Virus record (IMG/VR): IMGVR_UViG_3300031565_000490 | Coordinates: 1 to 20,229 of that record | Length of the DNA: 20,229 nucleotides | Reading direction: 5' to 3' (one strand) | Source: a virus | Shown here: positions 1,021-16,273 of the stretch, piece after piece | Layout: every line of letters starts with the position of its first letter | Numbering within the stretch: position 1 is the stretch's first letter | Made by a program: the position numbers and the translations under genes | The notes under the pieces: model-generated | Database searches by the model: none | Seen by the model: the letters and a program-made list of their open reading frames with translations, nothing else | What the model was told of the DNA's origin: nothing

Positions 1021-1042
1021 GTGAAAATATATTTATTTTCTA

Positions 1043-1079
1043 TTTTGCTTCTCTAATTTATAGCGTATACTTTAAGTAT
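1043..1079 (+). promoter_or_regulatory. Promoter/operator repeat, copy 1
   Basis: A -35-like TTTTGC (1043-1048), a 17-nt spacer and a -10 TATACT (1066-1071). The -10 is embedded in the perfect palindrome ATACTTTAAGTAT (1067-1079), which looks like an operator. Closely related elements lie at 4236, 9693 and 11585, each directly after the end of a gene run. The alternative -35 TTGCTT would leave a 15-nt spacer. The element is seen directly. Its promoter role is inferred from position, recurrence and the -10 match. Confidence 0.75.
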
Positions 1080-1221
1080 GAGCGAGCAAGAATACAAATG
1101 TCAGGTTTGTGGAAAGGTCACAAAAGAGACGGAACTCATGGGCCGTAAAGATTCTGAAGGGTACTATGTTCTGTATTGCGATTGTGGGAGTAGCAATATT
1201 AAGAATTGCGAGGCCAAATAA
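1078..1221 (+). CDS. Small zinc-ribbon protein, probably leaderless
   Basis: A 47-residue protein, MSEQEYKCQVCGK..., with an N-terminal CxxC and a C-terminal CDCG...C group, i.e. a compact zinc ribbon. No other in-frame start exists before the first cysteine pair, and the frame is closed upstream at 1054-1056. The ATG lies only 6 nt after the TATACT box and has no Shine-Dalgarno sequence, so the transcript is probably leaderless or nearly so. It ends one nucleotide before the next small ORF. Function unknown; a DNA- or RNA-polymerase-binding role is possible but not shown. Confidence 0.6.
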   Translation: MSEQEYKCQVCGKVTKETELMGRKDSEGYYVLYCDCGSSNIKNCEAK

Positions 1222-2531: not shown

Positions 2532-2532
2532 A

Positions 2533-2781
2533 ATGATAAACGAGACAAAAGATAGAAAGGTGCTTTGTGTGGATGGCGACCCAGGTAGTTGGTTACTGGG
2601 CTCTGGTATGCATGAAGGTAACTATGGTGAAGAAGCAATGGGCCCGTTTAAGCCCGAAAAGAGAACACAATTCTGGAAGCCCAATTGGGCTAATGAGCAT
2701 TTATTATACACCACTGCCCAACGGGCAGCCATTAAGGCAAGATGGCCTGATACATGTTTTGAAATTTCTCCTGGAATCTAA
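2533..2781 (+). CDS. Hypothetical protein
   Basis: An 82-residue protein that begins one nucleotide after the preceding stop, with GAGGTAAA just upstream. It is rich in Trp, Gly and Pro (GDPGSWLLGSGMHEGNYGEE, QFWKPNWANEH) and has no identifiable domain, signal peptide or membrane segment. Its TAA overlaps the helicase ATG (TAATG, 2779-2783), so it is probably translationally coupled to that gene. No function can be assigned. Confidence 0.55.
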   Translation: MINETKDRKVLCVDGDPGSWLLGSGMHEGNYGEEAMGPFKPEKRTQFWKPNWANEHLLYTTAQRAAIKARWPDTCFEISPGI

Positions 2782-4226
2782 TGACCTACAAATACAAAAC
2801 AAAACCGTTCGATCATCAGCACGAGGAATTCACGCATCACGGGGCTGACCCGGTGCGTGCTATCCTCTGGGAGCAGGGTGTGGGCAAGACCAAGCCCGTG
2901 ATTGATTCCACGGCCTATTTATACGAGCAAAAGGAAATTGACGGCCTGATGGTTATTGCTCCCAACGGTGTCCACCGCAATTGGGTGTCCGATGAGATGG
3001 TTGCTCACATGCCAGATCGAGTTATGACACAGGTGAAGTCACATGTTTGGTATAGTACTGATGCTCAGCGGCATATGAGGGCCTTTGAGGAGACGCTCAA
3101 GCATGACGGCTTGAGCGTCTTGGTCATGAGCTATAATGCCATCTGGACTAAGCGGGGCCAAAAGGCGTGGAAAGCCTTTTTGAAACAGCGGCGGTGTATG
3201 TACGTGCTTGATGAATCCCATCGGATTGGGGAACCGGGGGCCAAGTGGTCAAAGCGTATTTTAGGCAGTAAGACAGTGGCCCCATTTAAGCGTATTCTCA
3301 CCGGGACACCGACGGCCGGAAAACCGTTCAAGACTTATAACCAGTTGCGTTTTCTGGAGCCAGATGTGTGGCGTCAATATGGCATTAGCGATTTCGCCAC
3401 GTTCAAAGCCTTTTTCGGAATTTGGGAGACCGTTCATCTTAGTGAAGATCGTTCGTTCCCGAAATGCGTGGCCTATAAGAATCTGGATATTCTGAATCAT
3501 GAGTTGTTGCGGCTCGGAACGCGACTGACCAAGGATCAGGTGCTTGACCTACCACCAAAGATATACAGCAAGCGGTATGTTGAGTTGACTCCCAAACAAA
3601 AACAATTATATCAGCAGATGATTCAAGAATATGAAATTGAGTCAGCCCTGGGCACGCTCACTGCCGAATTGGCCATTGTCCGGCTCCTGCGGCTTCAGCA
3701 AATCATTTGCGGCTATTTGCCAGGCTCAGATGATGATGATGCCTTGGTGCCAATACCGGGTGGCAATCCTCGATTGGACTTGGTTGCCGAGATTTGTGAA
3801 GACTTAGGTCATCAAACTATCATATGGGCACGATTCCAAGAGGATCATCGACTCATCCATGAGCATAAATTGTTCCGAAACAACAGTGTGATGGTCAATG
3901 GAACCGTGACTGGCAAACCAAGGGACGCGGCACTTGACCGATGGAAAGCAGGGGATGTACAATTTCTCATAGCGTCACCGGCCGCAATCGGCATGGGCTA
4001 TACGCTGAATCAGGCTAAAACGTGTATCTACTATAGCAACGATTTTAATTTAACAAATCGGTTGCAATCAGAAGATCGGCCGCATAGAATTGGCCAAGAG
4101 GACAAAGTCCATTACATTGATTTGTGTGCTCGGGGGACGGCTGATACTCGGATCATTGAGACCCTGCGCAAGGGCCTTCATATTTCACAAGTTATTCAGG
4201 GGGATACGATGAAAGATTGGATTTAA
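2781..4226 (+). CDS. SNF2-like superfamily 2 DNA helicase/translocase
   Basis: A 481-residue protein with a complete SF2 helicase motif set. Residues 33-37 GVGKT form motif I. DESH (144-147) replaces DEAH as motif II. LTGTP (173-177) is motif III, and QSEDRPHRIGQ near residue 440 is motif VI, typical of the SNF2/RapA group (QAxDRxHRIGQ). An SSMGxG-like motif V is visible as PAAIGMGYTLNQA. Such phage proteins are ATP-dependent dsDNA translocases, proposed to remodel protein-DNA complexes during replication or recombination. The gene starts by TAATG overlap. A perfect 12-bp inverted repeat lies within its coding sequence (3091-3120). Confidence 0.9.
   Translation: MTYKYKTKPFDHQHEEFTHHGADPVRAILWEQGVGKTKPVIDSTAYLYEQKEIDGLMVIAPNGVHRNWVSDEMVAHMPDRVMTQVKSHVWYSTDAQRHMRAFEETLKHDGLSVLVMSYNAIWTKRGQKAWKAFLKQRRCMYVLDESHRIGEPGAKWSKRILGSKTVAPFKRILTGTPTAGKPFKTYNQLRFLEPDVWRQYGISDFATFKAFFGIWETVHLSEDRSFPKCVAYKNLDILNHELLRLGTRLTKDQVLDLPPKIYSKRYVELTPKQKQLYQQMIQEYEIESALGTLTAELAIVRLLRLQQIICGYLPGSDDDDALVPIPGGNPRLDLVAEICEDLGHQTIIWARFQEDHRLIHEHKLFRNNSVMVNGTVTGKPRDAALDRWKAGDVQFLIASPAAIGMGYTLNQAKTCIYYSNDFNLTNRLQSEDRPHRIGQEDKVHYIDLCARGTADTRIIETLRKGLHISQVIQGDTMKDWI
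3091..3120. repeat. Perfect 12-bp inverted repeat inside the SF2 helicase gene
   Basis: AGACGCTCAAGC (3091-3102) and GCTTGAGCGTCT (3109-3120) are exact reverse complements separated by a 6-nt loop, ATGACG. The stem has 7 G-C pairs and would be stable in RNA or in ssDNA. There is no following T-run, so a classical terminator is unlikely. It encodes part of ETLKHDGLSVL between motifs Ia and II. Confidence 0.8.
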
Positions 4227-4235
4227 TATTTTCCA

Positions 4236-4270
4236 TTTTGCTTTTCTAATCTATAGCGTATACTTTAATT
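4236..4270 (+). promoter_or_regulatory. Promoter/operator repeat, copy 2
   Basis: TTTTGC (4236-4241), a 17-nt spacer and TATACT (4259-4264), almost identical to copy 1 through the -10. The right half of the palindrome differs (TTTAATTAA rather than TTTAAGTAT), so the operator may be weakened here. A normal leader with AGAGGAGA follows before the ATG at 4286. This should drive the replication and nucleotide operon from 4286 to 9691. Confidence 0.75.
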
Positions 4271-4285
4271 AAGAGGAGAAATATA

Positions 4286-4843
4286 ATGACAATAGACCCA
4301 TACGCAGATTTTCGTGCTGATGGTGGCCCAAAAGAGGATGCCTTTGCGAAATTGAACGAGTTGGTAGTACGATTGACTCAGGCTGAGATTGACGTGGCCA
4401 ATGCTCAAAAGGCTCTCAAAACGGCTCAAGAGCAGTTGCGGCAGTTGGATGAATTTGATATTCCGGCCTATATGGATGAATTGGGGCTTAGTGATTTCAC
4501 AACCAAGGCTGGAGTCAAGATTGAGGTCAAGAGCACCATTCGCGCTTCTATCGGCAAACGCAAGGCCGAGGCCTATGCTTGGCTCTTAAAGAATAACCAT
4601 AGCGGACTCATCAAGCGCACTGTAATGGTGGCATTCAATGCGGCTGAGGGCAAAAGTGCTGAGGCATTATTGAAGGAACTGGTTGAACGGAACCTTGGTG
4701 CCGGGGCTAAGCAAGAAATGAAAGTTGAGGCAGCAAGCCTCACGGCCTGGGCACGGCGGCAACTCAAGGATGGCCATGAAGTTCCGGCTGATATCTTTGG
4801 AATCTATGATCAACGATCAACAAAAGTCACTCTACCAGAGTGA
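4286..4843 (+). CDS. Conserved phage protein with N-terminal coiled coil
   Basis: A 185-residue protein with an N-terminal coiled-coil-like helix (residues ~10-55: LNELVVRLTQAEIDVANAQKAL...), then a segment with alternating strands and helices, ending in ADIFGIYDQRSTKVTLPE. This layout (coiled coil, 'IPAYMDELGLSDFTTKAGVKIEVK', then a 'HEVPADIFGIY' tail) matches a widespread uncharacterised family found in the replication regions of podo- and siphoviruses. Its role is not established; proximity to the next gene suggests a partner in ssDNA handling. AGGAGA lies 8 nt before ATG 4286. The gene directly follows promoter copy 2. Confidence 0.7.
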   Translation: MTIDPYADFRADGGPKEDAFAKLNELVVRLTQAEIDVANAQKALKTAQEQLRQLDEFDIPAYMDELGLSDFTTKAGVKIEVKSTIRASIGKRKAEAYAWLLKNNHSGLIKRTVMVAFNAAEGKSAEALLKELVERNLGAGAKQEMKVEAASLTAWARRQLKDGHEVPADIFGIYDQRSTKVTLPE

Positions 4844-4865
4844 GGCGCCACGCGCTGGAGCGCCT
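4843..4865 (+). terminator. Intergenic hairpin, attenuator-like
   Basis: AGGCGC (4843-4848) and GCGCCT (4860-4865) form a perfect 6-bp GC-rich stem with an 11-nt loop, starting on the last base of the preceding stop codon. No T-run follows, so a partial terminator or mRNA-processing/stability element is more likely than a full terminator. It precedes the probable SSB gene. Confidence 0.45.
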
Positions 4866-4905
4866 AAAAGAGTCCACCGCACAACAGTATTGTAGGAGCA
4901 TAAGT

Positions 4906-5712
4906 ATGAGCAATGATTTAGCAAACAGAAACGCAGCATTGGCGACTCAGGATTTTGGTGAGTTCGCCGGGGCAGGGATGGAGAATGTCACACAGGCCGA
5001 TGTATCAATCCCATTCCTGGGCTTGATCCAGGCCCTCAGTCCGCAGGTTCAGGCAGGCGATGCCAAGTTCATCGATGGTGCCAAACCTGGTCAGTTATTC
5101 AACACAGTCACCAATGAGCTGATTGGTGATGGCACCACGGCCTTTTTCGTGGCCTGTTGTAAGGAAAGCAAGTTTGTCGAATGGGTGCCGCGCGATAAGG
5201 GTGGGGGCCTTGTTGCGATGCACGAGCCCAATTCGGAGTTTGTTCTTGCTTGTAAGCGGGCAGCAACGGATCAGTTCAGGCTCACGACGGATGAGGGCAA
5301 CGACCTTCTTGAGACCCACTATGTCTATGGTCTGCTCATCGAGGGTGCTGAGGGCAAGACCGTTGAGACGCCTATCGTTATTGGCTTCTCATCCAGTAAG
5401 ATCAAGGTGTACAAGGCCCAACTCATGACACGGATTCGCACCATCAAAGGCACTCCGCCGATGTTTGCTTTCAGGTTCAAAATTACATCGGTGCCTGATA
5501 AGAACAAAAAGGGCCAGCCGTATTTCAATCTCAAGATTGAACCGGCTTGCGGCGATATGGCCGCCAGCGCCAATCTGCCGGGTACTGAATTTGAGGGTTT
5601 GCTTGTTGAGGGCAAGGCACTCGTGGAAGCTGTCCACGGTGGCCGGGCCAAAGCTGACCATCAGTCAGCGGCAGATCAGCAGGAAAAATCAGATGGGGAT
5701 GAACCGTTCTAA
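4906..5712 (+). CDS. Probable single-stranded DNA-binding protein
   Basis: A 268-residue protein. ATG 4906 is chosen because TAGGAG (4893-4898) lies 7 nt upstream; the open frame from 4840 has no such site and crosses the hairpin. The body (SIPFLGLIQALSPQVQAG..., TTAFFVACCKESKFVEW, PPMFAFRFKITSV) resembles a phage family found beside replication genes and often labelled as ssDNA-binding. The last 20 residues are acidic and end SDGDEPF, close to the DDDIPF tip of bacterial SSB that recruits partner enzymes. The assignment rests on this tail and on context: helicases on both sides and DNA polymerase in the same genome. An OB fold is not provable by eye. Confidence 0.6.
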   Translation: MSNDLANRNAALATQDFGEFAGAGMENVTQADVSIPFLGLIQALSPQVQAGDAKFIDGAKPGQLFNTVTNELIGDGTTAFFVACCKESKFVEWVPRDKGGGLVAMHEPNSEFVLACKRAATDQFRLTTDEGNDLLETHYVYGLLIEGAEGKTVETPIVIGFSSSKIKVYKAQLMTRIRTIKGTPPMFAFRFKITSVPDKNKKGQPYFNLKIEPACGDMAASANLPGTEFEGLLVEGKALVEAVHGGRAKADHQSAADQQEKSDGDEPF

Positions 5713-5727
5713 ATCAACCCCCACTCC

Positions 5728-5752
5728 GGCCGTGCTCATCAAGGGCACGGCC
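5728..5752 (+). terminator. GC-rich hairpin after the SSB-like gene
   Basis: GGCCGTGC (5728-5735) and GCACGGCC (5745-5752) form a perfect 8-bp stem with a 9-nt loop. There is no poly-T tail. It lies in the 82-nt gap between the SSB-like gene and the helicase gene and shares base C5752 with the next hairpin, so the two can stack or compete by one pair. Confidence 0.6.
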
Positions 5753-5790
5753 ACCCCACAGGGGCCGTTGATGACGACCTCTGTGGGGTG
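5752..5790 (+). promoter_or_regulatory. 10-bp hairpin covering the helicase ribosome binding site
   Basis: CACCCCACAG (5752-5761) and CTGTGGGGTG (5781-5790) form a perfect 10-bp stem with a 19-nt loop. The 3' arm contains GGGGTG, the only Shine-Dalgarno-like tract before the helicase ATG at 5795, so folding would hide it. This suggests translational control of the helicase by RNA structure or by a protein that binds the hairpin. Seen directly as sequence; the regulatory role is inference. Confidence 0.6.
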
Positions 5791-5794
5791 AAAT

Positions 5795-7036
5795 ATGAAA
5801 TGGAGTCCTCAACAAATTAAAGCAATCGACGCCGTCAACCAGTGGCGGAAAAAGGCAGACCAACCTGTGTTTCGGTTGTTCGGGTATGCTGGAGTGGGCA
5901 AAACCACACTGGCAACGCACTTGGCCTCGGGAGTTGGTCGTGTTCAATTCGCAGCCTATACTGGCAAGGCAGCCTCAGTGATGCGAAATAAGGGTTGTCG
6001 TGGAGCCAGTACCATTCACAGCCTTATCTATATGCCCTCAAGTAAATCCCGAGCCACGTTGCTTGAGCTTCAAAGTGCGTTGGCCGAAGTCATCAATGAA
6101 CTGAGTCATGAACCTGAGTATCGGACTCCCGACCCGCCACCCATGGACGATAATTCAGAGGTTAAGAGGCTGAAAACCGAAATTCGTGAGGAGCAGGAAC
6201 GGCTCAAACGGCCATCTTTTGTTCTCAATCCTGACTCAGAAATTCGTGGTGCTGACCTTGTTGTGATTGATGAATGCTCTATGGTGGATAAAAGGATTGG
6301 TGAGGACTTGCTCAGCTTTGACGTACCAATATTGGTGTTGGGAGACCCGGCCCAATTACCGCCAGTCATGGGTGGCGGCTTCTTCACCAATGCTGAACCG
6401 GACGTGATGCTGACAGAAATTCACCGACAGGCTGCTGGCAATCCCGTCATCGACCTGGCCACCAAGGTGAGACAAGGCGAACACCTACAGGCGGGCCAAT
6501 ATGGGGACAGCCTGGTGATTGATGGTAAGCCACCCGAGGATTTGGTAACCAGGGCTGACCAAATTCTGGTGGGCAAGAACATCACCCGGCGAAAAGTCAA
6601 CGACAAGATGCGGCGACTCCTGGGCTATGGGAACGATCCACTACCAGTGACTGGGGACAAAGTAGTGTGCCTGCGAAATGATCATGAAGAGGGCCTGCTC
6701 AACGGCACCCTTTGGGAAGTCACACACGCAGATAAACTTGATGGGGTAGATTTGATGTCGTTATCGGTTGAGGGTGAGTTTGGCAAAACCACAGTCTCGG
6801 CCCACACCCATTACTTCCTGGGCATTGAGGACAAACTGCCGTATTACGAAATCAGAGAGGCCCAGTGTTTCGATTATGGCTATGCCTTGACCACGCACAA
6901 GGCCCAGGGATCGCAATGGTCGAATGTGTTTATATTCGATGAAAGTTGGGTGTTCCGGCAAAAAGACCACAGTAGACGGTGGCTGTATACTGCCATCACA
7001 CGGGCGGCTGATAAGGTGATAATTTGTAGAGCATAG
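5795..7036 (+). CDS. SF1B (RecD/Dda-like) 5'-3' DNA helicase
   Basis: A 413-residue helicase with all core motifs: GYAGVGKTT (residues 30-38, Walker A), TGKAASV (Ia), VVIDECSM near 160 (Walker B), GDPAQLPP (III), ALTTHKAQGSQW (V) and YTAITRA (VI). This is the Dda/RecD2 arrangement, associated with 5'-3' unwinding at replication forks. An insertion of charged residues (~90-150, SEVKRLKTEIREEQERLKRP) between motif Ia and II looks helical. ATG 5795 is the only good start. The upstream hairpin masks its ribosome binding site. It sits between the SSB-like gene and the reductase in the same operon. Confidence 0.9.
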   Translation: MKWSPQQIKAIDAVNQWRKKADQPVFRLFGYAGVGKTTLATHLASGVGRVQFAAYTGKAASVMRNKGCRGASTIHSLIYMPSSKSRATLLELQSALAEVINELSHEPEYRTPDPPPMDDNSEVKRLKTEIREEQERLKRPSFVLNPDSEIRGADLVVIDECSMVDKRIGEDLLSFDVPILVLGDPAQLPPVMGGGFFTNAEPDVMLTEIHRQAAGNPVIDLATKVRQGEHLQAGQYGDSLVIDGKPPEDLVTRADQILVGKNITRRKVNDKMRRLLGYGNDPLPVTGDKVVCLRNDHEEGLLNGTLWEVTHADKLDGVDLMSLSVEGEFGKTTVSAHTHYFLGIEDKLPYYEIREAQCFDYGYALTTHKAQGSQWSNVFIFDESWVFRQKDHSRRWLYTAITRAADKVIICRA

Positions 7037-7046
7037 AGGAGAATAA

Positions 7047-8840
7047 ATGGCACCAACATTAGATTTTTCAGAGGCAATTCACCAAGAAAAGTATCGTAGC
7101 AAGGGTGAATCATTCAAAGAAGCGATGAACCGGTTGGCCGGGGCCTTGGCTGATAACCCAGACCATTTCAAGGCTTTCCGTGATACCCTGCTTGACATGA
7201 GATTCATGCCGGGTGGTCGTATTCAAGGAGCCATCGGATCGACCAAGGGCCATGCGGTGACGGCCTATAACTGCTTTGTCTCAGGCCGGATTGAGGATTC
7301 ATTCGTTGACGGCCGGGGCTCCATCATGGATATAGCCAAAGAGGCTGCCACCACAATGAGGATGGGTGGTGGAATTGGGTATGACTTCAGCACGTTGAGA
7401 CCGCGCGGGGCCTACATCAAAAAGCTACAGTCAAGCTCATCAGGGCCGATTTCATTTATGGAGATATATGATGCAATCTGCCGGTGTATCGCATCATCTG
7501 GCCACCGACGTGGTGCTCAGATGGGTGTTATGAGGGTTGACCACCCAGATATTGAGGAGTTCATTCACGCCAAGCAGCCCCCAAAGGCGGCTGAACCTAT
7601 CATGGAGCAATTGGCCAAGGCAGAACCGAACACCGTTGAATGGCGACAGTGGTACACCGCGCTCCAGGCCGTTTATCAACTGACTGGCTTCAATATCAGT
7701 GTGGCTGTCACTGATAAATTTATGAAAGCGGTCAAATTTGGCAGTCGGTTTGCATTGCGATTTGGGGGCCGGGTTTATCGAGAAATTGATGCCAAGGCCC
7801 TGTGGGAGATGTTGATGCGGTCTGCTTGGGACTGGGCCGAGCCAGGGATCATTTTCATCGACACGGTCAACCGGATGAACAATCTCAGCTATTGTGAGGA
7901 AATCATTGCGACTAACCCATGCGGCGAACAGCCTTTGCCAGCCCACGGAGCATGTCTCCTGGGCTCATTCAACCTGACCAAATATATCACCGAATTGGCA
8001 GGCCAGAGCCATCAAATATTTGACTTTGAGCAATTCAGGGCCGATATTCCACATGTAGTCCGAGCAATGGACAATGTAACTGACCTTGCCTCATTCCCGC
8101 TATATGAGCAAGAGAAGATGGCCAAGGCCACGCGGCGAATGGGTCTTGGTGTTACTGGTCTGGCCAATGCGGTTGAGGTTTTGGGTATGCCTTATGGTTC
8201 AAAAAGTTTTATCCGCATGACTGAACAAATTCTCCAGACTTTGGCTCGGGAAGCATACAGGGCCTCGGCTCTGTTGGCAAGTGAGAAAGGCTCTTTTCCA
8301 AGATATGACACAGACAAATATCTTGCGGCCCCATTTATCCAGGGCCTTGATGCAGAAACCAGGGCCTTGATTGCGGCTCATGGTATCCGTAACAGTCACT
8401 TGACCTCAATCGCACCAACCGGGACAATTAGCCTGTGTGCTGACAACGTTTCGTCCGGGATTGAGCCGGTGTTCGCCTACAACCAAAAACGATTGGTGAA
8501 GATGCCCGAGGGTGATGTTGAGACCAATTTCGAGGATTATGGAGTGCGGGTATTTGGAGTGAAGGGCAAGCGGGCTCAGGACGTAACGATAGATGAGCAC
8601 TTGGCCGTCTTGGCTTGTGCCTCGGCCAACGTTGACTCGGCCGTAAGTAAAACCTGTAACGTACCCAGCAACACACCATGGGTTGACTTCAAGAGTCTGT
8701 ACATGAGGGCCTGGGAGTTGGGCTGTAAGGGCCTGGCGACTTACCAAGTGGGCGGCAAACGGGCCGGGATCATTACCTCAACGGACAACGAAAGCTCATG
8801 CCGACTTGACAAAGAGACCGGCAGGAAGGAATGTGAGTGA
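7047..8840 (+). CDS. nrdJ: Adenosylcobalamin-dependent (class II) ribonucleotide reductase
   Basis: A 597-residue reductase that converts ribonucleotides to deoxyribonucleotides through a cysteine thiyl radical generated from vitamin B12. N290-P-C292-G-E294 is the catalytic Asn/Cys/Glu motif. C76 (TAYNCFVSG) is the first redox cysteine, and the APTGTISL...SSGIEPVFAY loop is present. The last residues carry two cysteines (SSCRL...KECE), expected to relay electrons from a thioredoxin or glutaredoxin. No R2-like subunit or activase is seen in the window, which fits class II, independent of oxygen. GAGGAGA precedes ATG 7047. The length is at the short end for NrdJ. The stop overlaps the next gene by TGATG. 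Confidence 0.92.
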   Translation: MAPTLDFSEAIHQEKYRSKGESFKEAMNRLAGALADNPDHFKAFRDTLLDMRFMPGGRIQGAIGSTKGHAVTAYNCFVSGRIEDSFVDGRGSIMDIAKEAATTMRMGGGIGYDFSTLRPRGAYIKKLQSSSSGPISFMEIYDAICRCIASSGHRRGAQMGVMRVDHPDIEEFIHAKQPPKAAEPIMEQLAKAEPNTVEWRQWYTALQAVYQLTGFNISVAVTDKFMKAVKFGSRFALRFGGRVYREIDAKALWEMLMRSAWDWAEPGIIFIDTVNRMNNLSYCEEIIATNPCGEQPLPAHGACLLGSFNLTKYITELAGQSHQIFDFEQFRADIPHVVRAMDNVTDLASFPLYEQEKMAKATRRMGLGVTGLANAVEVLGMPYGSKSFIRMTEQILQTLAREAYRASALLASEKGSFPRYDTDKYLAAPFIQGLDAETRALIAAHGIRNSHLTSIAPTGTISLCADNVSSGIEPVFAYNQKRLVKMPEGDVETNFEDYGVRVFGVKGKRAQDVTIDEHLAVLACASANVDSAVSKTCNVPSNTPWVDFKSLYMRAWELGCKGLATYQVGGKRAGIITSTDNESSCRLDKETGRKECE

Positions 8841-9691
8841 TGGCGTATGAGAAATTGAACATTCAGGACTTCGGCCGGCAATTGCTTGAGACCAATGACC
8901 TCGATCCGGTGTATGTGGCCCTTCACAAGCTCCTGTCGCAGGATATCTGGACATTGGATCAGATCAAACGGTGGCTGGTAGCATATTGGTGCTTCTACAA
9001 TTGCGGTTTTGCCAGCTATATCAGCGAATTTGAGCGTGACCAATATTGGAATGAGATGTTTGTGGCGGCCGAAAATGAGGTTGAGTGCCCAGCAGGTTGT
9101 AGATACCCAAGAGGGGCTGAGCGCCGACGTTTCCGAGGTAAGAACGCTACAGACGCCGTTACGATGTTGAATCTCAACTACAACAGGCCCGAGGATATGG
9201 TTGACTTCATCATCGGTGAGAATCACCTTGAAACGCAATGCTTCAAGGCGATATGTGACAGAGTCAAACAGCACCGAGGATTTGGCCCATGGATTGGCTT
9301 CAAGGTTGCTGATATGATCGACCGGATACTTGGTATATCGGTTGATTTTGACCAGGCGGCCATCTTCATGTTCAAAGACCCGGTTAAGGCTGTGATCATG
9401 CTCTGGCGTCAAGCAACAGGTTATGGCAAAGAGGCCCGACCAAAAGACCTGCCGGCCACCATCGGCCAAGTTGTGGCCACGCTCACGGATGAATTCAAAG
9501 AGTTCAAGGCACCACCGCTGTATGACCGGCCGGTGGGCCTTCAAGAAGTTGAGACCGTGCTGTGTAAGTGGAAATCGCACATGAACGGGCACTACCCGCT
9601 GCTCAAGGATACAATCGAGATCAACGAAGGTCTTGCACCCTGGGCCGGATTTACATCGACAAGAGAATTTCGAGAATATATGCCAAAATAA
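8840..9691 (+). CDS. Alpha-glutamyl/putrescinyl-thymine pyrophosphorylase-like protein (clade 2 type)
   Basis: A 283-residue protein of the glycosylase-fold family predicted to act on hypermodified thymine. The signature PRGAERRRFRG is at residues 90-100, preceded by the helical YWCFYNCGFASYIS block (50-61). A helix-hairpin-helix-like stretch FGPWIGFKVADMIDRIL (148-164) follows. In the described pathway, 5-hydroxymethyl-dU in DNA is first phosphorylated, then a pyrophosphorylase-family enzyme replaces the pyrophosphate with an amine or amino acid. The subclass is assigned from motif memory. ATG 8840 overlaps the reductase stop, with AAGGAA upstream. A long antisense frame exists here but is a shadow. 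Confidence 0.75.
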   Translation: MAYEKLNIQDFGRQLLETNDLDPVYVALHKLLSQDIWTLDQIKRWLVAYWCFYNCGFASYISEFERDQYWNEMFVAAENEVECPAGCRYPRGAERRRFRGKNATDAVTMLNLNYNRPEDMVDFIIGENHLETQCFKAICDRVKQHRGFGPWIGFKVADMIDRILGISVDFDQAAIFMFKDPVKAVIMLWRQATGYGKEARPKDLPATIGQVVATLTDEFKEFKAPPLYDRPVGLQEVETVLCKWKSHMNGHYPLLKDTIEINEGLAPWAGFTSTREFREYMPK

Positions 9692-9692
9692 A

Positions 9693-9733
9693 TTTTGATT
9701 CTCATTCCTATATCGTATGCTTTAAGTATGGAG
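9693..9733 (+). promoter_or_regulatory. Promoter/operator repeat, copy 3 (diverged)
   Basis: TTTTGA (9693-9698), a 17-nt spacer and TATGCT (9716-9721), with TTTAAGTATG following as in copy 1. One -10 base differs (TATGCT), which breaks one arm of the palindrome. After the element, GGAGCGAACAA resembles the AGCGAGCAA that follows copy 1, so this looks like a decayed duplicate of the copy 1 promoter plus gene start. It begins two nt after the preceding TAA. Confidence 0.65.
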
Positions 9734-9761
9734 CGAACAATAACTTTAATGAGGAGAAAAC

Positions 9762-9821
9762 ATGAAGACACTTAACACCATACTGGGGCTCTGGTTCATC
9801 CTTTCGGGAAGAACATTGTAG
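9762..9821 (+). CDS. 19-residue hydrophobic leader-type peptide
   Basis: ATG 9762 follows a strong GAGGAG (9751-9756) at good spacing and encodes MKTLNTILGLWFILSGRTL before TAG. The peptide has a basic start and a hydrophobic core (ILGLWFIL). It could be a short membrane peptide or a translated leader ORF that senses ribosome progress, because two hairpins and no other gene lie in the next 80 nt. Too short for homology; the support is the ribosome binding site and its position after a promoter. Confidence 0.4.
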   Translation: MKTLNTILGLWFILSGRTL

Positions 9822-9828
9822 GAGCCCC

Positions 9829-9849
9829 GCCCAGTGCACACTCCTGGGC
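9829..9849 (+). terminator. Leader hairpin 1
   Basis: GCCCAG (9829-9834) and CTGGGC (9844-9849) form a perfect 6-bp stem with a 9-nt loop, 8 nt after the short leader ORF. It is followed by AATAATAATAATAA rather than a T-run, so it is attenuator-like at most. Together with hairpin 2 it fills the noncoding leader. Confidence 0.45.
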
Positions 9850-9868
9850 AGCAATAATAATAATAACC

Positions 9869-9881
9869 GCCACAATGTGGC
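9869..9881 (+). promoter_or_regulatory. Leader palindrome 2 upstream of the HTH gene
   Basis: GCCACA and TGTGGC flank a single A (9869-9881), a perfect interrupted palindrome. The one-base centre is too tight for a good RNA loop, so a dimeric protein-binding operator is at least as likely as a hairpin. It ends 7 nt before the AGGAG of the helix-turn-helix gene at 9902, making autoregulation by that protein a testable idea. Confidence 0.45.
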
Positions 9882-9901
9882 CTAATTTAGGAGAATAGAC
9901 A

Positions 9902-10162
9902 ATGGCTATACTGAAACCTCAAAAAGCTGAAAAGTTGTGTGATTGGTTGAGAAGAAACAGAACAAGGTTGGCGGGGTCAGGGTTGACCTACAGAAAAGTG
10001 GCTGAGAAAGCAACGAGGGATCTGGGATTCTTGGTAAAGGACTACCACATCAATTACCGCATACACGAGGTGATGAATGGAGTACCACCTGTAATACCCA
10101 TAACATTGGCCAAGCCTGTCCAGTGCCCGAGTTGTGGACAATGGAGAACCTATGATAATTAA
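9902..10162 (+). CDS. Small helix-turn-helix protein with C-terminal CxxC
   Basis: An 86-residue basic protein. Residues ~10-60 (LCDWLRRNRTRLAGSGLTYRKVAEKATRDLGF...INYRIHEVM) have the helix-turn-helix layout of small phage DNA-binding proteins, in which 'LTYRKVAEKAT' is the first helix of the pair. The C-terminus carries CPSCG, half of a zinc-binding site that could be completed in a dimer. AGGAG (9889-9893) is 8 nt before ATG 9902. The gene follows promoter copy 3 and the palindrome at 9869, and overlaps the kinase gene by 11 nt, so it probably regulates this small operon. Confidence 0.6.
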   Translation: MAILKPQKAEKLCDWLRRNRTRLAGSGLTYRKVAEKATRDLGFLVKDYHINYRIHEVMNGVPPVIPITLAKPVQCPSCGQWRTYDN

Positions 10163-10721
10163 CATCCGAGGAACAAGCGGGTCAGGGAAGTCTACCCTGG
10201 CCCGACGGGTGATGGAGCAATACACCGGTTGTCGCTCCAGAATCAAACGGCCGGGCCGCAGGCAGCCTTTTGGTTACATTCTTGCCCGTGGGCCGCAGAA
10301 TCCACCAGGCAAGGCCCTTATCGTCATCGGGCACTATGAATCACCTTGTGGTGGCTGTGATACCATCAAGACCTATGATGAGGTGTTTCAGGCCGTGAGA
10401 GACGCACATGATGCAGGATATGATGTGCTGTTTGAGGGCTTGCTTTTGAGCACTGATAAGAACCATATGACAAAATTGGCTCAAGAGTATGAACACCTCA
10501 TTGTCGGACTGGATGTGCCAGTTGATGAGTGCCTACGGTGTGTCAACGAAAGACGACGGGCTAAGAAGCCAGATACTGAGGACGTCAACCCAAAGGGCAC
10601 TATCTCAAAACACGGCACCAATCAACGGATTATGGCTCATTTCATCCAGGCCGGGTTGAATGCTGAGCGGCACTCAAGAGCCAGTGCTTTCAATCGCATA
10701 GCTGAGGAATTGAATATATGA
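10152..10721 (+). CDS. P-loop kinase, candidate 5-hydroxymethyl-dU DNA kinase
   Basis: A 189-residue P-loop NTPase with RGTSGSGKST at residues 6-15 (Walker A), a Walker B-like VLFEGLLLS segment and an Arg-rich lid (VNERRRAKKPDT). Fold and size match small nucleotide or polynucleotide kinases. Because pyrophosphorylase-type genes lie within the same cassette, the likeliest role is the kinase that pyrophosphorylates 5-hydroxymethyluracil in DNA, activating it for the next step. A deoxynucleotide monophosphate kinase is the main alternative. ATG 10152 is preferred to an in-frame GTG at 10134, since GGAG (10143-10146) is correctly spaced. The stop overlaps the next gene by ATGA. Confidence 0.7.
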   Translation: MIINIRGTSGSGKSTLARRVMEQYTGCRSRIKRPGRRQPFGYILARGPQNPPGKALIVIGHYESPCGGCDTIKTYDEVFQAVRDAHDAGYDVLFEGLLLSTDKNHMTKLAQEYEHLIVGLDVPVDECLRCVNERRRAKKPDTEDVNPKGTISKHGTNQRIMAHFIQAGLNAERHSRASAFNRIAEELNI

Positions 10722-11584
10722 AAGAATTCACTTTGATAGAATCCGAGGTTGCTGAATACTTCCGCACGGCTCGTGAGCGATACCGGATTATGCTGCGGAA
10801 AAACGCCGGGATGCCAAAGCCTTGGTCTAATGACCCGGTGTTCCAGGATTGGTTCTTTTGCAATGTGTTCCGTGAGGATGACAAAACTACCAAATGGATC
10901 AAGGAGCATATCCGGGAGCCACACAGAAATGACTCATGCGTGTTCTGGATGATGGTTGCCTGCCGGTTGTTCAATAAAATCTCCACACTGGAGAAGTTAT
11001 TATCGGCCGGGGTTTTTGATCGTTGGTGGGATCGTACTCAGGCCGAGGTCGCACTTGAAGGTACATCACCGCTATGTGGGGCAGGCTATATGGTTCACAC
11101 ACCATATGGAATGGCGAAACTACCCGGCTGTCTCAAGTTAATTGATGATGCGGCTCAGGATAATGATCGACGTATCCAGCTTATTCAACCAGGCCGCACC
11201 AGTCTCCAAGAAGTTTTTGAGATGCTCCTACCGGCCGATTGCTTTGGCCCATTCATGGCATACGAGATTGTCACAGACCTACGGCACACCTATCTGCTTG
11301 AAAACGCACCGGACATCATAACATGGGCCTCTCCTGGGCCAGGGGCTTGTTTGGGTCTCAGCCGATTGGTGGGTGAAAAGGTCTCGTACGGGAGCGCTGC
11401 GGATCGAGCAGCGGCCGTGGATTGTATGCAGCAGATCGTCACGGCTGCTGGCACGTATTGGTGGCCGAACCATTGGCCTCATTGGGAAATGCGAACGGTT
11501 GAGCATTGGCTGTGCGAGCATGCTAAGTATACCAAGGTGGCTATGCTTGGAAAACGCATGAAACGAAAATATTCTGGAAAATAA
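10718..11584 (+). CDS. Alpha-glutamyl/putrescinyl-thymine pyrophosphorylase-like protein (clade 3 type)
   Basis: A 288-residue protein of a second, divergent branch of the same functional family as the gene at 8840. Its signature is clear: GMPKPWSNDPVF (residues 31-42) then FCNVFREDDKTTKWI (47-61), followed by VFWMMVACRLFN and a glycosylase-like CFGPFMAYEIVTDL around 170. These proteins are predicted to act on pyrophosphorylated hmU in DNA, exchanging pyrophosphate for an amine or amino acid. Database names also use '5-hmdU DNA kinase helical domain' for related proteins, so the exact catalytic role is open. The gene overlaps the kinase (ATGA) and ends just before promoter copy 4. Confidence 0.78.
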   Translation: MKEFTLIESEVAEYFRTARERYRIMLRKNAGMPKPWSNDPVFQDWFFCNVFREDDKTTKWIKEHIREPHRNDSCVFWMMVACRLFNKISTLEKLLSAGVFDRWWDRTQAEVALEGTSPLCGAGYMVHTPYGMAKLPGCLKLIDDAAQDNDRRIQLIQPGRTSLQEVFEMLLPADCFGPFMAYEIVTDLRHTYLLENAPDIITWASPGPGACLGLSRLVGEKVSYGSAADRAAAVDCMQQIVTAAGTYWWPNHWPHWEMRTVEHWLCEHAKYTKVAMLGKRMKRKYSGK

Positions 11585-11623
11585 ATTTGCTTTTCCAATC
11601 TTATAGCGTATACTTTAAGTATG
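11585..11623 (+). promoter_or_regulatory. Promoter/operator repeat, copy 4
   Basis: ATTTGC (11585-11590), or TTTGCT shifted by one to keep a 17-nt spacer, then TATACT (11609-11614) inside the perfect palindrome ATACTTTAAGTAT (11610-11622). The spacer is one base longer than in the other copies. It starts right after the TAA of the pyrophosphorylase gene. The first ATG of the HNH gene follows the -10 by 6 nt, as in copy 1. Confidence 0.75.
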
Positions 11624-11960
11624 GCAAATATGAGAAAAATCAACAGTGGTCATGCGATGCCAGCAATATTTGACAGGGATTTGACCTTGCGACTATTGAA
11701 TGGTCTCAAGAAAAAACAATGAGACCGGTTGCTGGGAATGGCAAAAATGTAAAGATGAGCATGGCTATGGTAAGATCAAATATAACGGTAAGAGCCATTG
11801 GGTTCACCGAATTGCTTATGCAGTCTTCAAAGGTGATATTCCCGAGGGCATGACCATTGACCACGGCTGTCGGAGTCGGGCCTGTTGTAACCCAGACCAT
11901 TTGGAAGTAATGACGATGAGTGAGAATTCAAAGAGGAGATGGGCAGTATGCAAGTCATAA
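11621..11960 (+). CDS. HNH endonuclease with apparent frameshift
   Basis: The C-terminal 86 residues (frame from 11700) are a typical HNH nuclease: GCWEWQKCKDEHGYGKIKYNGKSHWVHRIAY, then TIDHGCRSRACCNPDHLEVM with the His-Asn-His and zinc cysteines. That frame is closed at 11697-11699 and has no ribosome binding site. A matching N-terminus, MANMRKINSGH...DRDLTLRLLNGLKK, reads in frame 2 from ATG 11621. The two join by skipping one base in the A6 run at 11711-11716. Either an extra A was sequenced, or the gene is broken or slips. The position immediately upstream of the thymidylate synthase-like gene is typical for a free-standing homing endonuclease. The start is probably leaderless. Confidence 0.65.
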
Positions 11961-12952
11961 ACACACGGAACGTACACCAGGCTTTGCCCAAGGTCATGTA
12001 TCTGATTAAGACCCAAGGCGTGGCCAGGGACAGTCGCAACGGGCCGGTTCTCAAGGTGCCGGGGCCTGTGACAATTTGTTACGAGAAGCCAAAAGAACGG
12101 GTGATGTTCTGGCCAGAGCGTAATGCCAACCCATTTTTCCATTGCCTTGAGGCTTTGTGGATGTTGGCGGGCCGGAATGACGTGGCTTTTCCTGCCGGGA
12201 TCGTTCGGAACATGGCCAATTTTTCAGATGATGGGGATACTTTTAACGGGGCTTATGGCTACCGCTGGCGTCAACATTACGGTTTTGATCAGTTGACACG
12301 TATAGCTCAAGCATTGGCCAAAGACCGATATGACCGGCGACAGGTTTTATCAATGTGGGACGGGGATCAAGATTTAGGCTCTAATTCAAAAGACGTACCT
12401 TGCAACACGCAGGCATACTTCAGCCGGACGGACACCGGGGCATTGGACATGACGGTCACAAATCGTTCCAATGATGCCGTCTGGGGTGCTTTGGGAGCCA
12501 ACGCGGTTCACTTCTCAATGCTCCAGGAATATCTGGCAGTCATGATTGGTTGTGAGGTTGGTAAATACTGGCAGGTGACCAACAATCTTCACCTGTACCT
12601 TGATCATCATAGAGAATTGATGGAGAAAATGGTACACCCAATATCCTTTAACTACGAGAACAGTTGTCCATATGAAAGGGGTATTGCGAAGCCCACCCCA
12701 CTTATCCTTGATGGGGACGTGGCAACATTTGACAGCAACGTTGCGACACTACTTGACACAGATATGCCCCTGGGCATGACTGATTGGTTCTGTCGCAATA
12801 TAGCAAATCCACTGTTACAGGCTATTCGAGCCTATAAAGCCAAACAGGCTGACCGAGTCAATGTTGCTCAAAGCATATTGGCGAAGAACATGCCTGTAGA
12901 TTCTGATTGGCTGAAGGCGGGATGGGAATGGCTTGAAAGGAGAGCTAAATGA
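11948..12952 (+). CDS. Thymidylate synthase-family enzyme, candidate dUMP hydroxymethylase
   Basis: A 334-residue member of the ThyA fold family. The catalytic cysteine is C152 in DVPCNTQAYF; canonical TS has PCH here, this has PCN. R130/R131 (DRRQVLSMWDGDQD), NRSND (172-176), N185 and HLY (215-217) fill the dUMP-binding roles. Asn rather than Asp at the base-recognition position indicates dUMP, not dCMP. In this gene context it is likely to make 5-hydroxymethyl-dUMP for base hypermodification, although plain dTMP synthesis cannot be excluded by sequence. ATG 11948 is preferred over 11939 because AGAGGAG ends at 11938. It overlaps the HNH stop and the next gene (ATGA). Confidence 0.82.
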   Translation: MQVINTRNVHQALPKVMYLIKTQGVARDSRNGPVLKVPGPVTICYEKPKERVMFWPERNANPFFHCLEALWMLAGRNDVAFPAGIVRNMANFSDDGDTFNGAYGYRWRQHYGFDQLTRIAQALAKDRYDRRQVLSMWDGDQDLGSNSKDVPCNTQAYFSRTDTGALDMTVTNRSNDAVWGALGANAVHFSMLQEYLAVMIGCEVGKYWQVTNNLHLYLDHHRELMEKMVHPISFNYENSCPYERGIAKPTPLILDGDVATFDSNVATLLDTDMPLGMTDWFCRNIANPLLQAIRAYKAKQADRVNVAQSILAKNMPVDSDWLKAGWEWLERRAK

Positions 12953-13494
12953 CAGTCTACGAGAATGTAGCAATGCGACGTGAGGCCGGGGCCATAGAGC
13001 GATGGCATGTAGTCCCGCATCATGGAAGTATTACAGTAGCCAGTCACAGTTGGAATGCTACTATGTTGCTTTTGGAATTATACCCTAAAGCATCACGAAG
13101 GCTCATTGTCTATATGCTTCATCATGATGTAACGGAGCGATGGACAGGAGACATACCAGCTTCGGCCAAGGCCATGTTCCCTTTAATAATGCAAGGTGTT
13201 CAAGAAGCCGAAATAAGTTTAGAGGATGAGATGAGCCTACCATCAACTCGTAATTTGTCCTCGACAGAACGTGCTTGGGCTCGGGCCATTGATGCTTTGG
13301 AGATGATGCTTTGGTGTCATGAGCAAATAGCAATGGGCAATCGAATGGTTGAGCCCGCCTTGGAACAATTGGCCATGTGGATTATGGATGAGGATTGGAT
13401 TCCAGCGGCTATAAAAACGTTTTACAAAAATTACAAGTGGAAACGATACCCAGATTATCTAATTGAGAGGGGCAAATATGGCGACAACGAGTAG
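12949..13494 (+). CDS. HD-domain 5'-deoxynucleotidase, YfbR-like
   Basis: A 181-residue HD hydrolase. Visible metal and substrate residues follow the YfbR pattern: RWH at 18-20, ASHSW with H33, MLHHD with H59-D60, E63, TGDIPASAK (67-74) and a late AIDALEMM aspartate. YfbR-type enzymes dephosphorylate deoxynucleoside monophosphates. In a hypermodification cassette such an enzyme could remove dTMP or balance hmdUMP, though its specificity is unknown. AAGGAGAG precedes ATG 12949, which overlaps the upstream stop by ATGA. The open frame continues 17 nt into the next gene. Confidence 0.8.
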   Translation: MTVYENVAMRREAGAIERWHVVPHHGSITVASHSWNATMLLLELYPKASRRLIVYMLHHDVTERWTGDIPASAKAMFPLIMQGVQEAEISLEDEMSLPSTRNLSSTERAWARAIDALEMMLWCHEQIAMGNRMVEPALEQLAMWIMDEDWIPAAIKTFYKNYKWKRYPDYLIERGKYGDNE

Positions 13495-13900
13495 TGATGG
13501 ACATTTGAAATTCATTCCGGTAATAGCCCAGGAAGATGCAGATGGGCTCCTGAAAGCACATGAGAGTTATGGTGACTCTTGGAAGAAACGTGGCGGAGTA
13601 GGGGCTTATATGGTTATGATCCGCAAGTTTGACCGGATGGAACGGGCTGTGGAAAAGGCCGGTTGGGATATTTTCAAAGCTGTTGAGGCCGATCCGAGAG
13701 TTGAGGGCCTTGTGGATGACATCCGAGACGCCAGGCGGTATTTGCTGCTGATTGAATCGACGCTGCGTGAGCAGGGCCTTGTCGAGGGTGGGAATCACCG
13801 GGACAATCTTGAGCGCCAGCCGAAAGGCGCTTGTGATGATATCCATTGCGGTCATCCTGGTTGTGATGCTGTGCGTGCGATGGCTGAGGAGAAATCATGA
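13478..13900 (+). CDS. Nmad1/MazG-like nucleotide-modification-associated protein
   Basis: A 140-residue, mainly helical protein. The block AHESYGDSWKKRGGVGAYMVMIRKFDRMERAV (residues ~30-60) is the DUF1599/Nmad1-type motif (YGxSW...K.DR), a family repeatedly seen with phage DNA-modification genes and related to MazG-type nucleotide pyrophosphohydrolases. The C-terminus has a Cys/His group (CDDIHCGHPGCDA) that may bind metal. GAGAGGGG precedes ATG 13478; the longer frame from 13463 is not supported. It overlaps both neighbours, so it is in the same coupled run. Biochemical function is not established. Confidence 0.65.
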   Translation: MATTSSDGHLKFIPVIAQEDADGLLKAHESYGDSWKKRGGVGAYMVMIRKFDRMERAVEKAGWDIFKAVEADPRVEGLVDDIRDARRYLLLIESTLREQGLVEGGNHRDNLERQPKGACDDIHCGHPGCDAVRAMAEEKS

Positions 13901-14382
13901 AACACAAACACAAACAAGAATATACCATTGGCTTTATGTTCAATGAGAGCATGACGGAAGTGCTGCTAATTCTCAAAGCCCACGGGCCGAAGTGCGTAGT
14001 GGGCCAGTGGAACGGGATCGGCGGGCATTTGGAGCCGGGTGAGACACCGCTTGAGTGTCAAATGCGGGAATTTGAAGAGGAGACCGGAGTGAAAACTGAT
14101 CCGGCCGATTGGGCGCTTTTCACCAAACTACAAGGCCCTGATTTCATTGTCCATTGCTTCTGGGGCCGGAACACTCATGCTGTATTGAGTGCCAGGACAA
14201 CAACAGATGAGCGGGTTGAGATCGTCCTTATTAGTTCAAAACTTGACAATCTTAACTTGGCTCCCAATCTTCAGTGGTTTATTCCGTTCCTGTGCGACAC
14301 AAGCACCAAAAACCACCTTGGTGTGGTTTTAGCAACCTATTGTAAGGAGGATAACTATCCAAATTCAAATTCCACTATTTAA
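13897..14382 (+). CDS. Nudix hydrolase
   Basis: A 161-residue protein with a perfect Nudix box, G43-x5-E49-x7-REFEEETGV (57-65), preceded by GQWNGIGGHLEPGE. Nudix enzymes hydrolyse nucleoside diphosphates linked to another group, here possibly a nucleoside triphosphate, which would sanitise or shape the dNTP pool. The substrate is unknown. Start ATG 13897 overlaps the preceding stop (ATGA) with GAGGAG upstream. The C-terminal tail after IPFLCD is unusually polar and contains the hairpin at 14309-14330. It runs past the ribosome binding site of the polymerase gene. Confidence 0.85.
   Translation: MKHKHKQEYTIGFMFNESMTEVLLILKAHGPKCVVGQWNGIGGHLEPGETPLECQMREFEEETGVKTDPADWALFTKLQGPDFIVHCFWGRNTHAVLSARTTTDERVEIVLISSKLDNLNLAPNLQWFIPFLCDTSTKNHLGVVLATYCKEDNYPNSNSTI
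14309..14330 (+). terminator. Hairpin with T-tail upstream of the polymerase gene
   Basis: AAAACCAC (14309-14316) and GTGGTTTT (14323-14330) form an 8-bp stem with a 6-nt loop and end in TTTT, resembling a weak rho-independent terminator or attenuator. It lies within the 3' coding end of the Nudix gene and 14 nt before the polymerase Shine-Dalgarno, so partial termination would lower polymerase expression. Confidence 0.45.
14344..14359 (+). promoter_or_regulatory. Perfect Shine-Dalgarno with no ATG/GTG/TTG start
   Basis: AAGGAGG (14344-14350) is a near-perfect ribosome binding site. At the normal distance, and in the polymerase frame, the codon is ATC (14357-14359), not ATG, GTG or TTG. It decides the most likely polymerase start. 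The next possible start, TTG 14420, has only AAGGG nearby. Confidence 0.6.
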
Positions 14383-16273
14383 GCCCGAGGGAGGCTACAC
14401 CCCACCAAGGGTTCAAAATTTGCCTTCATGGCAAAATGCTGGTCGAGTCTCAATTGACATTGAGTGTCGAGACGATCAGCTGAAGACGCTGGGGCCAAGC
14501 GTCAGGCGTGGTGGGTACATCTGTGGTTACTCATTTGCTATTGAGGACGGGCCAGCCGAGTATGTGCCAATCAGGCACGCGGGTGGAGACAATGTCGACA
14601 ATCCTAAAATGGCGCTTCAGTACCTGCGCGACCAAGCCAAGAACTTCACCGGCGACCTTTGTGGTGCCAACATCCAATTTGATTTGGATTACTTGGCTGA
14701 GGCAGATATTGAGTTCCCCCAAGTAAAGTGGTTCCGAGATTGTCAAATTGCGGAGCCATTGCTGGATGAACTCCAATTCTCCTATTCTCTGGACAACATA
14801 GCCATACGGCGGGGCCTACCAGGAAAAGATGAAACCATGCTGAATGATGCTGCAAAAGCCTACGGCGTGGATCCAAAAAGTGAGATGTGGAAGTTGCCGG
14901 CTCGATTTGTGGCTCAGTATGGTATTCAAGATGCGCGATTGCCTCTTCAATTGCTCAGGCGCCAAGAGCGGGAGATTGATGAGCAGGGCCTCTGGGATGT
15001 CTACAATCTTGAGTCACGGCTTTTGCCTGTATTGGCGAGGATGCGACGCCGTGGTGTGAGGGTTGATTTTGATAGATTGGATCAAGTTGAAAAATGGGCT
15101 ATTGAGGAGGAGCAAACTAAGCTGGATGAGGTTTTTCACCACACAGGTGTAAGGATCATAGTAGACAACGTCAATAAGCCGTTATGCCTTGCCGGGGCAC
15201 TTGAGGCCATCGGCGTGACAGTGCCTCTGACCCCATCGACCCACCAACCGTCTGTCGACAACGAGTTGCTCATAAACTTGAAACATCCAGTGGGTGATGC
15301 CCTGGTGCGGGCTCGTAAGGTCAATAAGCTCCGCACCACGTTTGCTGAGTCCGTTCGTAGACACGCTATAGGTGACCGGATTCATTGTACTTTCAACCAA
15401 CTCAGGCGTGAATCGGACTCAGGACAGGGTGACGGCCAGGGTGCCAGATATGGTCGTTTGTCCTGCTGTGAGCCAAATCTTCAACAACAACCAAGTCGAG
15501 ATGATTTCGCTAAAATGTGGCGGTCAATTTATGTACCAGATGAGGGTGGAATTTGGTCTTGTAACGACTTCAGTCAACAGGAACCAAGATGGCTTGTCCA
15601 TTATGCTGAATTATGTAGGTGTCCTGGAGCAAAAATAGCAGCTGATAAATACCGTAATGATCCTTTAACTGATAATCATACGATGATGGCTCGTACTATA
15701 TATGGCCTATTGGATAATGAAGAACCGACCAAAGTTCAACGCACCAATGCCAAGATCATCTTCCTGGGCTTGTGTTACGGAATGGGCGGGGCCAAGTTGG
15801 CGCGGGGCCTATATCTGCCAACCAAATGGATAACTAATCGGCGTGGAGAAAGAATTGAGGTGGCCGGAGATGAAGCCCAGGCGGTATTGGATTTGTTTAA
15901 CAAGCGGGCTCCGTTTGTTAAGATGATGGCTCAAAGGACACAGTCACGGGCTAATGACCGAGGGTATATAGAAACGATAGCAGGACGGCGTTGCCGATTT
16001 CCTGAAGACACCAATGGTGGTTGGGATTGGACTCATAAGGCCTTGAATCGGCTCATTCAAGGCTCTTCGGGGGATCAAACCAAGGTGGCGATGGTTGAGG
16101 CTGATGCGGCCGGATTTGCTATCCAATTACAGGTTCATGATGAATTAGACCATACCGCAGCGGATCAGAATGAGGCCCAGGAATTGGGTCAGTTGATGCG
16201 AGAATGTGTTACAGCAAATGTGCCATTTAGGGTTGATACAGAAATAGGGCCAAGTTGGGGAGAGGCAAAATAA
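14357..16273 (+). CDS. Family A DNA polymerase with 3'-5' exonuclease
   Basis: About 638 residues if it starts at ATC 14357 (617 from TTG 14420). The upstream part (IPLFKPEGGYTPPRVQNLPSW) matches the usual N-terminus of this phage polymerase group, supporting the earlier start. Exonuclease motifs: SIDIEC, NIQFDLDYL, and YGIQDARLPL. Polymerase motifs: A, NDFSQQEPRW; B, RTNAKIIFLGLCYG; C, QVHDELDH. The residue equivalent to E. coli Pol I F762 is Leu (codon 15764-15766), a variant known in environmental phages. There is no 5'-3' exonuclease domain. It is the replicative polymerase, working with the helicases, SSB-like protein and primase in this window. Confidence 0.92.
   Translation: MQIQIPLFKPEGGYTPPRVQNLPSWQNAGRVSIDIECRDDQLKTLGPSVRRGGYICGYSFAIEDGPAEYVPIRHAGGDNVDNPKMALQYLRDQAKNFTGDLCGANIQFDLDYLAEADIEFPQVKWFRDCQIAEPLLDELQFSYSLDNIAIRRGLPGKDETMLNDAAKAYGVDPKSEMWKLPARFVAQYGIQDARLPLQLLRRQEREIDEQGLWDVYNLESRLLPVLARMRRRGVRVDFDRLDQVEKWAIEEEQTKLDEVFHHTGVRIIVDNVNKPLCLAGALEAIGVTVPLTPSTHQPSVDNELLINLKHPVGDALVRARKVNKLRTTFAESVRRHAIGDRIHCTFNQLRRESDSGQGDGQGARYGRLSCCEPNLQQQPSRDDFAKMWRSIYVPDEGGIWSCNDFSQQEPRWLVHYAELCRCPGAKIAADKYRNDPLTDNHTMMARTIYGLLDNEEPTKVQRTNAKIIFLGLCYGMGGAKLARGLYLPTKWITNRRGERIEVAGDEAQAVLDLFNKRAPFVKMMAQRTQSRANDRGYIETIAGRRCRFPEDTNGGWDWTHKALNRLIQGSSGDQTKVAMVEADAAGFAIQLQVHDELDHTAADQNEAQELGQLMRECVTANVPFRVDTEIGPSWGEAK

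Follow-up and report, generated by a model that had tools for sequence, protein, structure and literature searches.

The slot between the amino acid:DNA transferase (ADDT) gene and the DNA kinase gene of this virus probably contains an ordinary phage operon promoter and a short leader in a place of gene turnover, and not an attenuator. The window, by which we mean the whole 20,229-base stretch of the virus record that was analysed, carries a thymidine hypermodification cassette at positions 8837–12952, and the phage probably decorates its own DNA. In the reading that we favour, RNA would start near position 9728 from a sigma70-type promoter that occurs four times in 20 kb; about 170 nt of leader would come next, and ORF 9902, the 5hmU DNA kinase and the helical domain protein would then form one tightly overlapping operon. 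The promoter repeat, the preservation of its place in a related contig (L004), the gene order and the Shine-Dalgarno sites are seen directly and form the basis of this reading. As a regulatory device the region is probably unimportant; its value lies in a PaMx11-type gene order with an unusual slot and in a promoter type that points to an uncultured phylum as a candidate host.

The window holds one hypermodification cluster, with an ADDT, a 5hmU kinase, a helical domain protein and a thymidylate synthase-like protein encoded by the following genes:

8837..9691, + strand: ADDT, the gene upstream of the leader (PF18724, E 4.2e-22).
10152..10721, + strand: 5-hmdU DNA kinase-like P-loop protein (PF18748, E 8.6e-7).
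10718..11584, + strand: 5-hmdU DNA kinase helical domain protein (PF18723, E 3.5e-37).
11939–12952: thymidylate synthase family gene (PF00303).

The match of the second gene to PF18748 agrees with a modification kinase downstream of the leader, as had been proposed in an earlier sequence-only reading of this DNA. The start of the kinase gene overlaps the end of ORF 9902 by 11 nt. The slot between the ADDT and kinase genes is 460 bases long (9692–10151) and holds the leader and ORF 9902.

The cassette is similar to that of Pseudomonas phage PaMx11 (Mesyanzhinovviridae, Abidjanvirus; gp46–gp51), in which the ADDT, kinase, helical and thymidylate synthase genes are present in the same order and are 39–55% identical. 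The gene order of the window matches that of PaMx11, which is RNR, ADDT, FAD oxidoreductase, acetyltransferase, kinase, helical protein, thymidylate synthase, HD, DNA polymerase and deaminase. However, in contrast to the window, where the slot is filled by the leader and an orphan ORF, the slot of PaMx11 contains the FAD oxidoreductase gp47 and the GNAT acetyltransferase gp48. We take gp46–gp48 to have the roles named here and presume that the ADDT of PaMx11 adds glycine. The closest relative found, L004 (IMGVR_UViG_3300005663_000235), is 59% identical to the window in ADDT, 73% in the kinase, 69% in the helical protein and 68% in the synthase, whereas its slot contains a GIY-YIG gene and a FAD oxidoreductase and is without the mini-ORF, the hairpins or ORF 9902. 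Conservation in close relatives had been suggested as a check on the leader, and in this relative it was not found. A FAD-family match is present in 15 of the 43 related contigs (L004–L046), downstream of ADDT in 13 and upstream of it in 2. Searches of the whole window with gp47, gp48 and the FAD protein of L004 gave no match at E ≤ 0.1, the best E value for gp47 and gp48 within the slot being 0.87. A relic of the FAD gene was also considered as a candidate and was rejected, as a profile of 20 FAD members omits ORF 9902 and the frames of the slot score −2.5 to −2.9 bits against 6.0 for the best shuffle.

As the slot differs in content between the window, PaMx11 and the related contigs, genes appear to be replaced rapidly where the leader and ORF 9902 lie, and since relatives carry tailoring enzymes there, both are most likely a recent filler and not a conserved device. 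However, L004 is only 59–73% identical in the flanking proteins and differs in slot content, so that non-conservation in this one contig cannot show the leader to be functionless. The slot without its usual enzymes predicts a simpler modified base. If the ADDT of the window adds glycine, as we presume for that of PaMx11, the product would stay an aminoacyl thymine, a prediction that covers the 20,229-base window; a tailoring enzyme may be encoded elsewhere in the genome.

The promoter is one of a family of repeats, all of which are located upstream of genes:

1034..1080, + strand: promoter copy 1; gene 1078 begins at its TATG, without a Shine-Dalgarno sequence.
4227..4273, + strand: promoter copy 2; precedes the Shine-Dalgarno-led gene 4286.
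9684..9730, + strand: promoter copy 3, of the same repeat family; overlaps the ADDT stop codon.
11577..11623, + strand: promoter copy 4; precedes the HNH gene.

Copy 3 reads CGTATGCTTTAAGTATG at 9714–9730 and lies within a 49-nt repeat (9684–9732). A scan of the 20-kb window with a 17-mer, allowing up to 3 mismatches, gave 4 matches against 0.01 expected, and two promoters are present at matching places in L004; the promoter copy reported by the sequence-only reading is therefore real. The core TATAGCGTATACTTTAA precedes genes in all four window copies, copy 3 differing from it by 2 mismatches, and the wider promoter pattern is found at 1059, 4252, 9709 and 11602. As judged from its sequence, the promoter repeat itself is real and of the sigma70 type. 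Copy 3 has a −35-like element TTTGAT (9694–9699) and a −10-like element TATGCT (9716–9721), from which transcription would start at about 9728. Its −35 element is poor, the spacing is 15–16 nt, and it is absent from the output of a sigma70-type consensus scan.

In L004 the promoter is present at 7155 and 9505, one copy following ADDT and the GIY-YIG gene, the other following the helical gene. At L004:7155 the Shine-Dalgarno-led ATG of the FAD oxidoreductase is situated 34 nt past the −10 element, and at window copy 3 the corresponding ATG of the mini-ORF is situated 40 nt past it. Copies 1 and 4 have an ATG 6 nt past the −10 element and no Shine-Dalgarno sequence (genes 1078–1221 and 11621), which suggests that these two genes are probably leaderless. 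Shine-Dalgarno-led starts follow copy 2 and L004:7155, and for copy 3 the Shine-Dalgarno-led ATG at 9762, which is 34 nt past the TATG at 9728, is the likelier start.

Between promoter copy 3 and the kinase gene, the following features are present:

9728..9775, + strand: 15-codon frame, opening at the promoter TATG and sharing 14 nt with the start of the mini-ORF.
9751..9756, + strand: Shine-Dalgarno sequence GAGGAG, 5 nt before the ATG of the mini-ORF.
9762..9821, + strand: mini-ORF MKTLNTILGLWFILSGRTL, 19 codons and a TAG stop.
9785..9828, + strand: hairpin GGGGCUCU/GGAGCCCC, overlapping the mini-ORF and its stop, without a U-tract.
9829..9849, + strand: 6-bp hairpin GCCCAG/CTGGGC, without a U-tract.
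9853..9866, + strand: AATAATAATAATAA tract, unstructured in the predicted fold and the sole perfect copy in the window.
9869..9881, no strand assigned: perfect 6-1-6 palindrome GCCACAATGTGGC, 20 bp before ORF 9902.
9889..9893, + strand: Shine-Dalgarno sequence AGGAG of ORF 9902, as read in the sequence.
9902..10162, + strand: orphan ORF 9902 (the 'HTH gene'), 86 residues, with three predicted helices and no family match.

The 19-codon ORF, the hairpin at 9829–9849, the AATAATAATAATAA tract and the palindrome had all been described from the sequence and are confirmed at these positions; the larger hairpin (9785–9828) and the 15-codon frame were absent from that description. A strong ribosome site at the mini-ORF had also been claimed, and this holds: 18 of 487 ATGs on the + strand of the window are led by a Shine-Dalgarno sequence as compared with 2 of 303 on the − strand, an enrichment that makes the start of the mini-ORF credible. 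The mini-ORF may be translated, be it into a small peptide or as what is left of the beginning of an earlier gene. It is not unusually hydrophobic, since 29 of 221 short ATG frames equal it in this, and its codon score of −0.001 is uninformative at 19 codons. No relative of the mini-ORF was found in L004, in 50,697 phage records or in PHROGs. The 15-codon frame begins at a leaderless position, has a codon score of −0.13 and is probably not a gene.

ORF 9902 is preceded by a Shine-Dalgarno sequence, which together with the 11-nt overlap with the kinase speaks for a gene. Its codon score of −0.037 is the lowest of 17 frames compared, the 15 other accessory frames (the HNH gene counting as two) ranging from 0.074 to 0.271, and is below the 5th percentile (0.10) of 86-codon stretches within genes. 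It may be recently acquired, or it may not be a gene. No relatives of ORF 9902 or the leader were found in the IMG/VR peptide scan, the GTDB peptide scan or L004; tblastn and blastn against 50,697 phage records returned only two chance rows (E 3–4), and a plasmid search with both gave one 29-nt row (E 0.1). In Pfam, ORF 9902 matched no HTH family, the zf-CW row (E 0.061) being below its cutoff, and NCBIfam gave nothing. Among PHROGs there is a weak row annotated as DNA binding protein (E 0.55), and among PDB sequences there are zinc-finger rows on residues 70–80 at E 0.017 and worse. The single-sequence AlphaFold model consists of three helices, two of them spaced as in HTH proteins, with a mean pLDDT of 74.3. 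Foldseek gave no match to this model at E ≤ 0.001, and the single weak row given by VIA is the homeodomain NKR-5-3B, at Z 2.2 with an rmsd of 3.5 across 52 residues.

Structure prediction had been put forward as a further check on the leader, and it did not single out the hairpin at 9829–9849. Compared with shuffled sequences, the stability of this hairpin alone corresponds to z −0.58 and that of the whole leader to z −1.2, and only the stretch 9763–9852 reaches z −2.4 (4 of 200 shuffles). This somewhat stabler fold is a counterpoint to the reading of an ordinary operon. An inverted repeat with 7-bp arms arises in 374 of 2000 shuffled leaders, and a palindrome of equal quality in 214 of 2000. 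An Rfam search of positions 9600–10200 gave no match at E ≤ 1. The hairpins and the palindrome are best taken as chance.

Leader-peptide attenuators exist as the trp/his type and the erm type, and the window likewise has a short, Shine-Dalgarno-led ORF upstream of an operon and over a hairpin. An attenuator had been one of the proposals of the sequence-only reading; here a ribosome on the mini-ORF would melt the hairpin at 9785–9828 and so alter downstream transcription or translation. The position of the mini-ORF stop codon inside this stable hairpin is in keeping with such a device, as is the z value of 9763–9852. However, unlike the trp/his- and erm-type systems, the window has no terminator, no predicted alternative fold that hides a site and no conservation. 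No intrinsic terminator is present on the + strand between 9692 and 9901, none of the three hairpins has a U-tract behind it, and the one terminator-like site in the leader is on the − strand (9881–9869). The ribosome site of ORF 9902 (9887–9894) is 0.48–0.59 unpaired in all four modelled ribosome states (no ribosome, or one placed on the mini-ORF at its start, middle or stop; these are states of a model, not of an experiment), so that its predicted accessibility does not depend on the position of the ribosome. The mini-ORF peptide is also without a run of one amino acid, and neither the mini-ORF nor the hairpins are kept in L004. On this evidence an attenuator is very unlikely. Binding of a predicted HTH protein of ORF 9902 to the palindrome at 9869–9881, with repression of its own operon, is improbable as well. 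The perfect palindrome just before ORF 9902, the HTH-like spacing of two helices in the model and the NKR-5-3B row would fit such an operator, but palindromes of this kind are readily produced by shuffling, no second copy within 1 mismatch is present in the window, and the palindrome is located about 140 bp downstream of the predicted transcript start. Moreover, the HTH call comes from a single-sequence model (pLDDT 74) that has no Foldseek match at E ≤ 0.001, Pfam and NCBIfam give no HTH family, the PHROG row is at E 0.55, and the codon score of ORF 9902 is negative.

The resemblance of the leader to the start of gene 1078, which had led to the proposal of a decayed duplicate of the first transcription unit, is borne out in part. 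The 12 bases after the ATG of the 9728 frame agree with those of gene 1078 at 10 positions (P ~2e-4 with the position fixed), and TTTAAGTATG is kept in 3 of the 4 promoter copies, as would be expected if promoter copy 3 had been copied along with the start of a 1078-like leaderless gene that later decayed. In free local alignment, however, 473 of 1000 shuffles do as well, so that the resemblance is not significant there, and nothing aligns past the 12 bases. In its upstream part, copy 3 is 80% identical to copy 4 across 45 nt and only 71% identical to copy 1, in a table of copy-to-copy identity from which the L004 rows, shifted by one base, are left out. The shared bases could also be the early transcribed region of the promoter, and we regard the duplicate, weakly supported as it is, as unlikely. 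It is likewise quite improbable that the mini-ORF and the slot are the remains of the FAD oxidoreductase of the relatives, or that an indel has split a small gene here. The succession of promoter, Shine-Dalgarno sequence and ATG is similar to that of the L004 FAD gene, and ORF 9902 scores 47 against the L004 FAD protein, the best of 89 L004 frames; 5 of 5000 shuffles score as high, and the small slot search gives E 0.003. Another frame is open at 9766–9885, and the nearby HNH gene is split between frames. Against this, the slot gives only the poor values mentioned above for gp47 and gp48, 28 of 200 shuffles equal its DNA alignment outside the promoter, and 39 open codons are not rare. An ordinary promoter and short leader are the probable reading of the region.

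A search of GTDB species genomes with the gapped promoter pattern gave three matches, and all three are in Candidatus Omnitrophota. As named by eye, two of them precede a toxin-antitoxin-like pair and one precedes a radical-SAM-like gene; at the toxin-antitoxin-like pairs, an operator-like palindrome contains the promoter core. Because these two matches are homologous, the three represent at most two independent events. Omnitrophota contigs L148 and L156 have leaderless promoters of the form TTTGM-N11-13-ATAGCGTATRCTT, with the ATG on or near the inferred start, as in the phage promoter type; in contrast to these, the likelier start at copy 3 is the Shine-Dalgarno-led ATG 34 nt further down. 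A shorter pattern searched in 237 Omnitrophota genomes gave 3 matches, 2 already known and 1 new, against 1 in 237 for the reversed-pattern control, so that this phylum-wide scan adds nothing significant. Bases 1–20000 of the window match DNA of 15 of the 237 genomes at E ≤ 0.01, all matches being short or about 67% identical; several are in the reductase gene and one is at 18464–18744, and none was seen to be a spacer or a prophage. The promoter thus provides a lead, not proof, that Omnitrophota are a possible host of the phage. It is highly improbable that the promoters are of a leaderless, Omnitrophota host type and that leaderless initiation of the 9728–9775 frame, which extends across the Shine-Dalgarno sequence and start codon of the mini-ORF, competes with Shine-Dalgarno-led initiation there and in this way sets expression of the modification operon.

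The toxin-antitoxin-like pair of Omnitrophota, identified by eye, is located at L147:5868–6520 and L146:2620–3265. The promoter core in L147 is half of the palindrome ATACGCTA-A-TAGCGTAT, and it is the right half that the phage promoter also has.

The HNH gene of the window (11621–11960) is split across two frames near 11711–11724. Its homologue at L004:10092–10430 is unbroken and, by eye, has an N-terminus that matches the upstream frame of the window gene. The split could be either an assembly error or a broken gene.

Among 98 IMG/VR stretches containing the promoter 16-mer, which were judged by eye for the wider promoter, it seemed to be present, besides L067 (the same contig as L004), only in L142 and L099; the other stretches are taken as chance. 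The L142 contig, which shares its metagenome of origin with L004, ends in the same promoter (13500–13548), and it may be another part of the L004 phage. In L099, a 98-kb viral contig, a very similar promoter on the − strand (7100–7190) precedes a GTG in the leaderless position and a small, membrane-protein-like frame.
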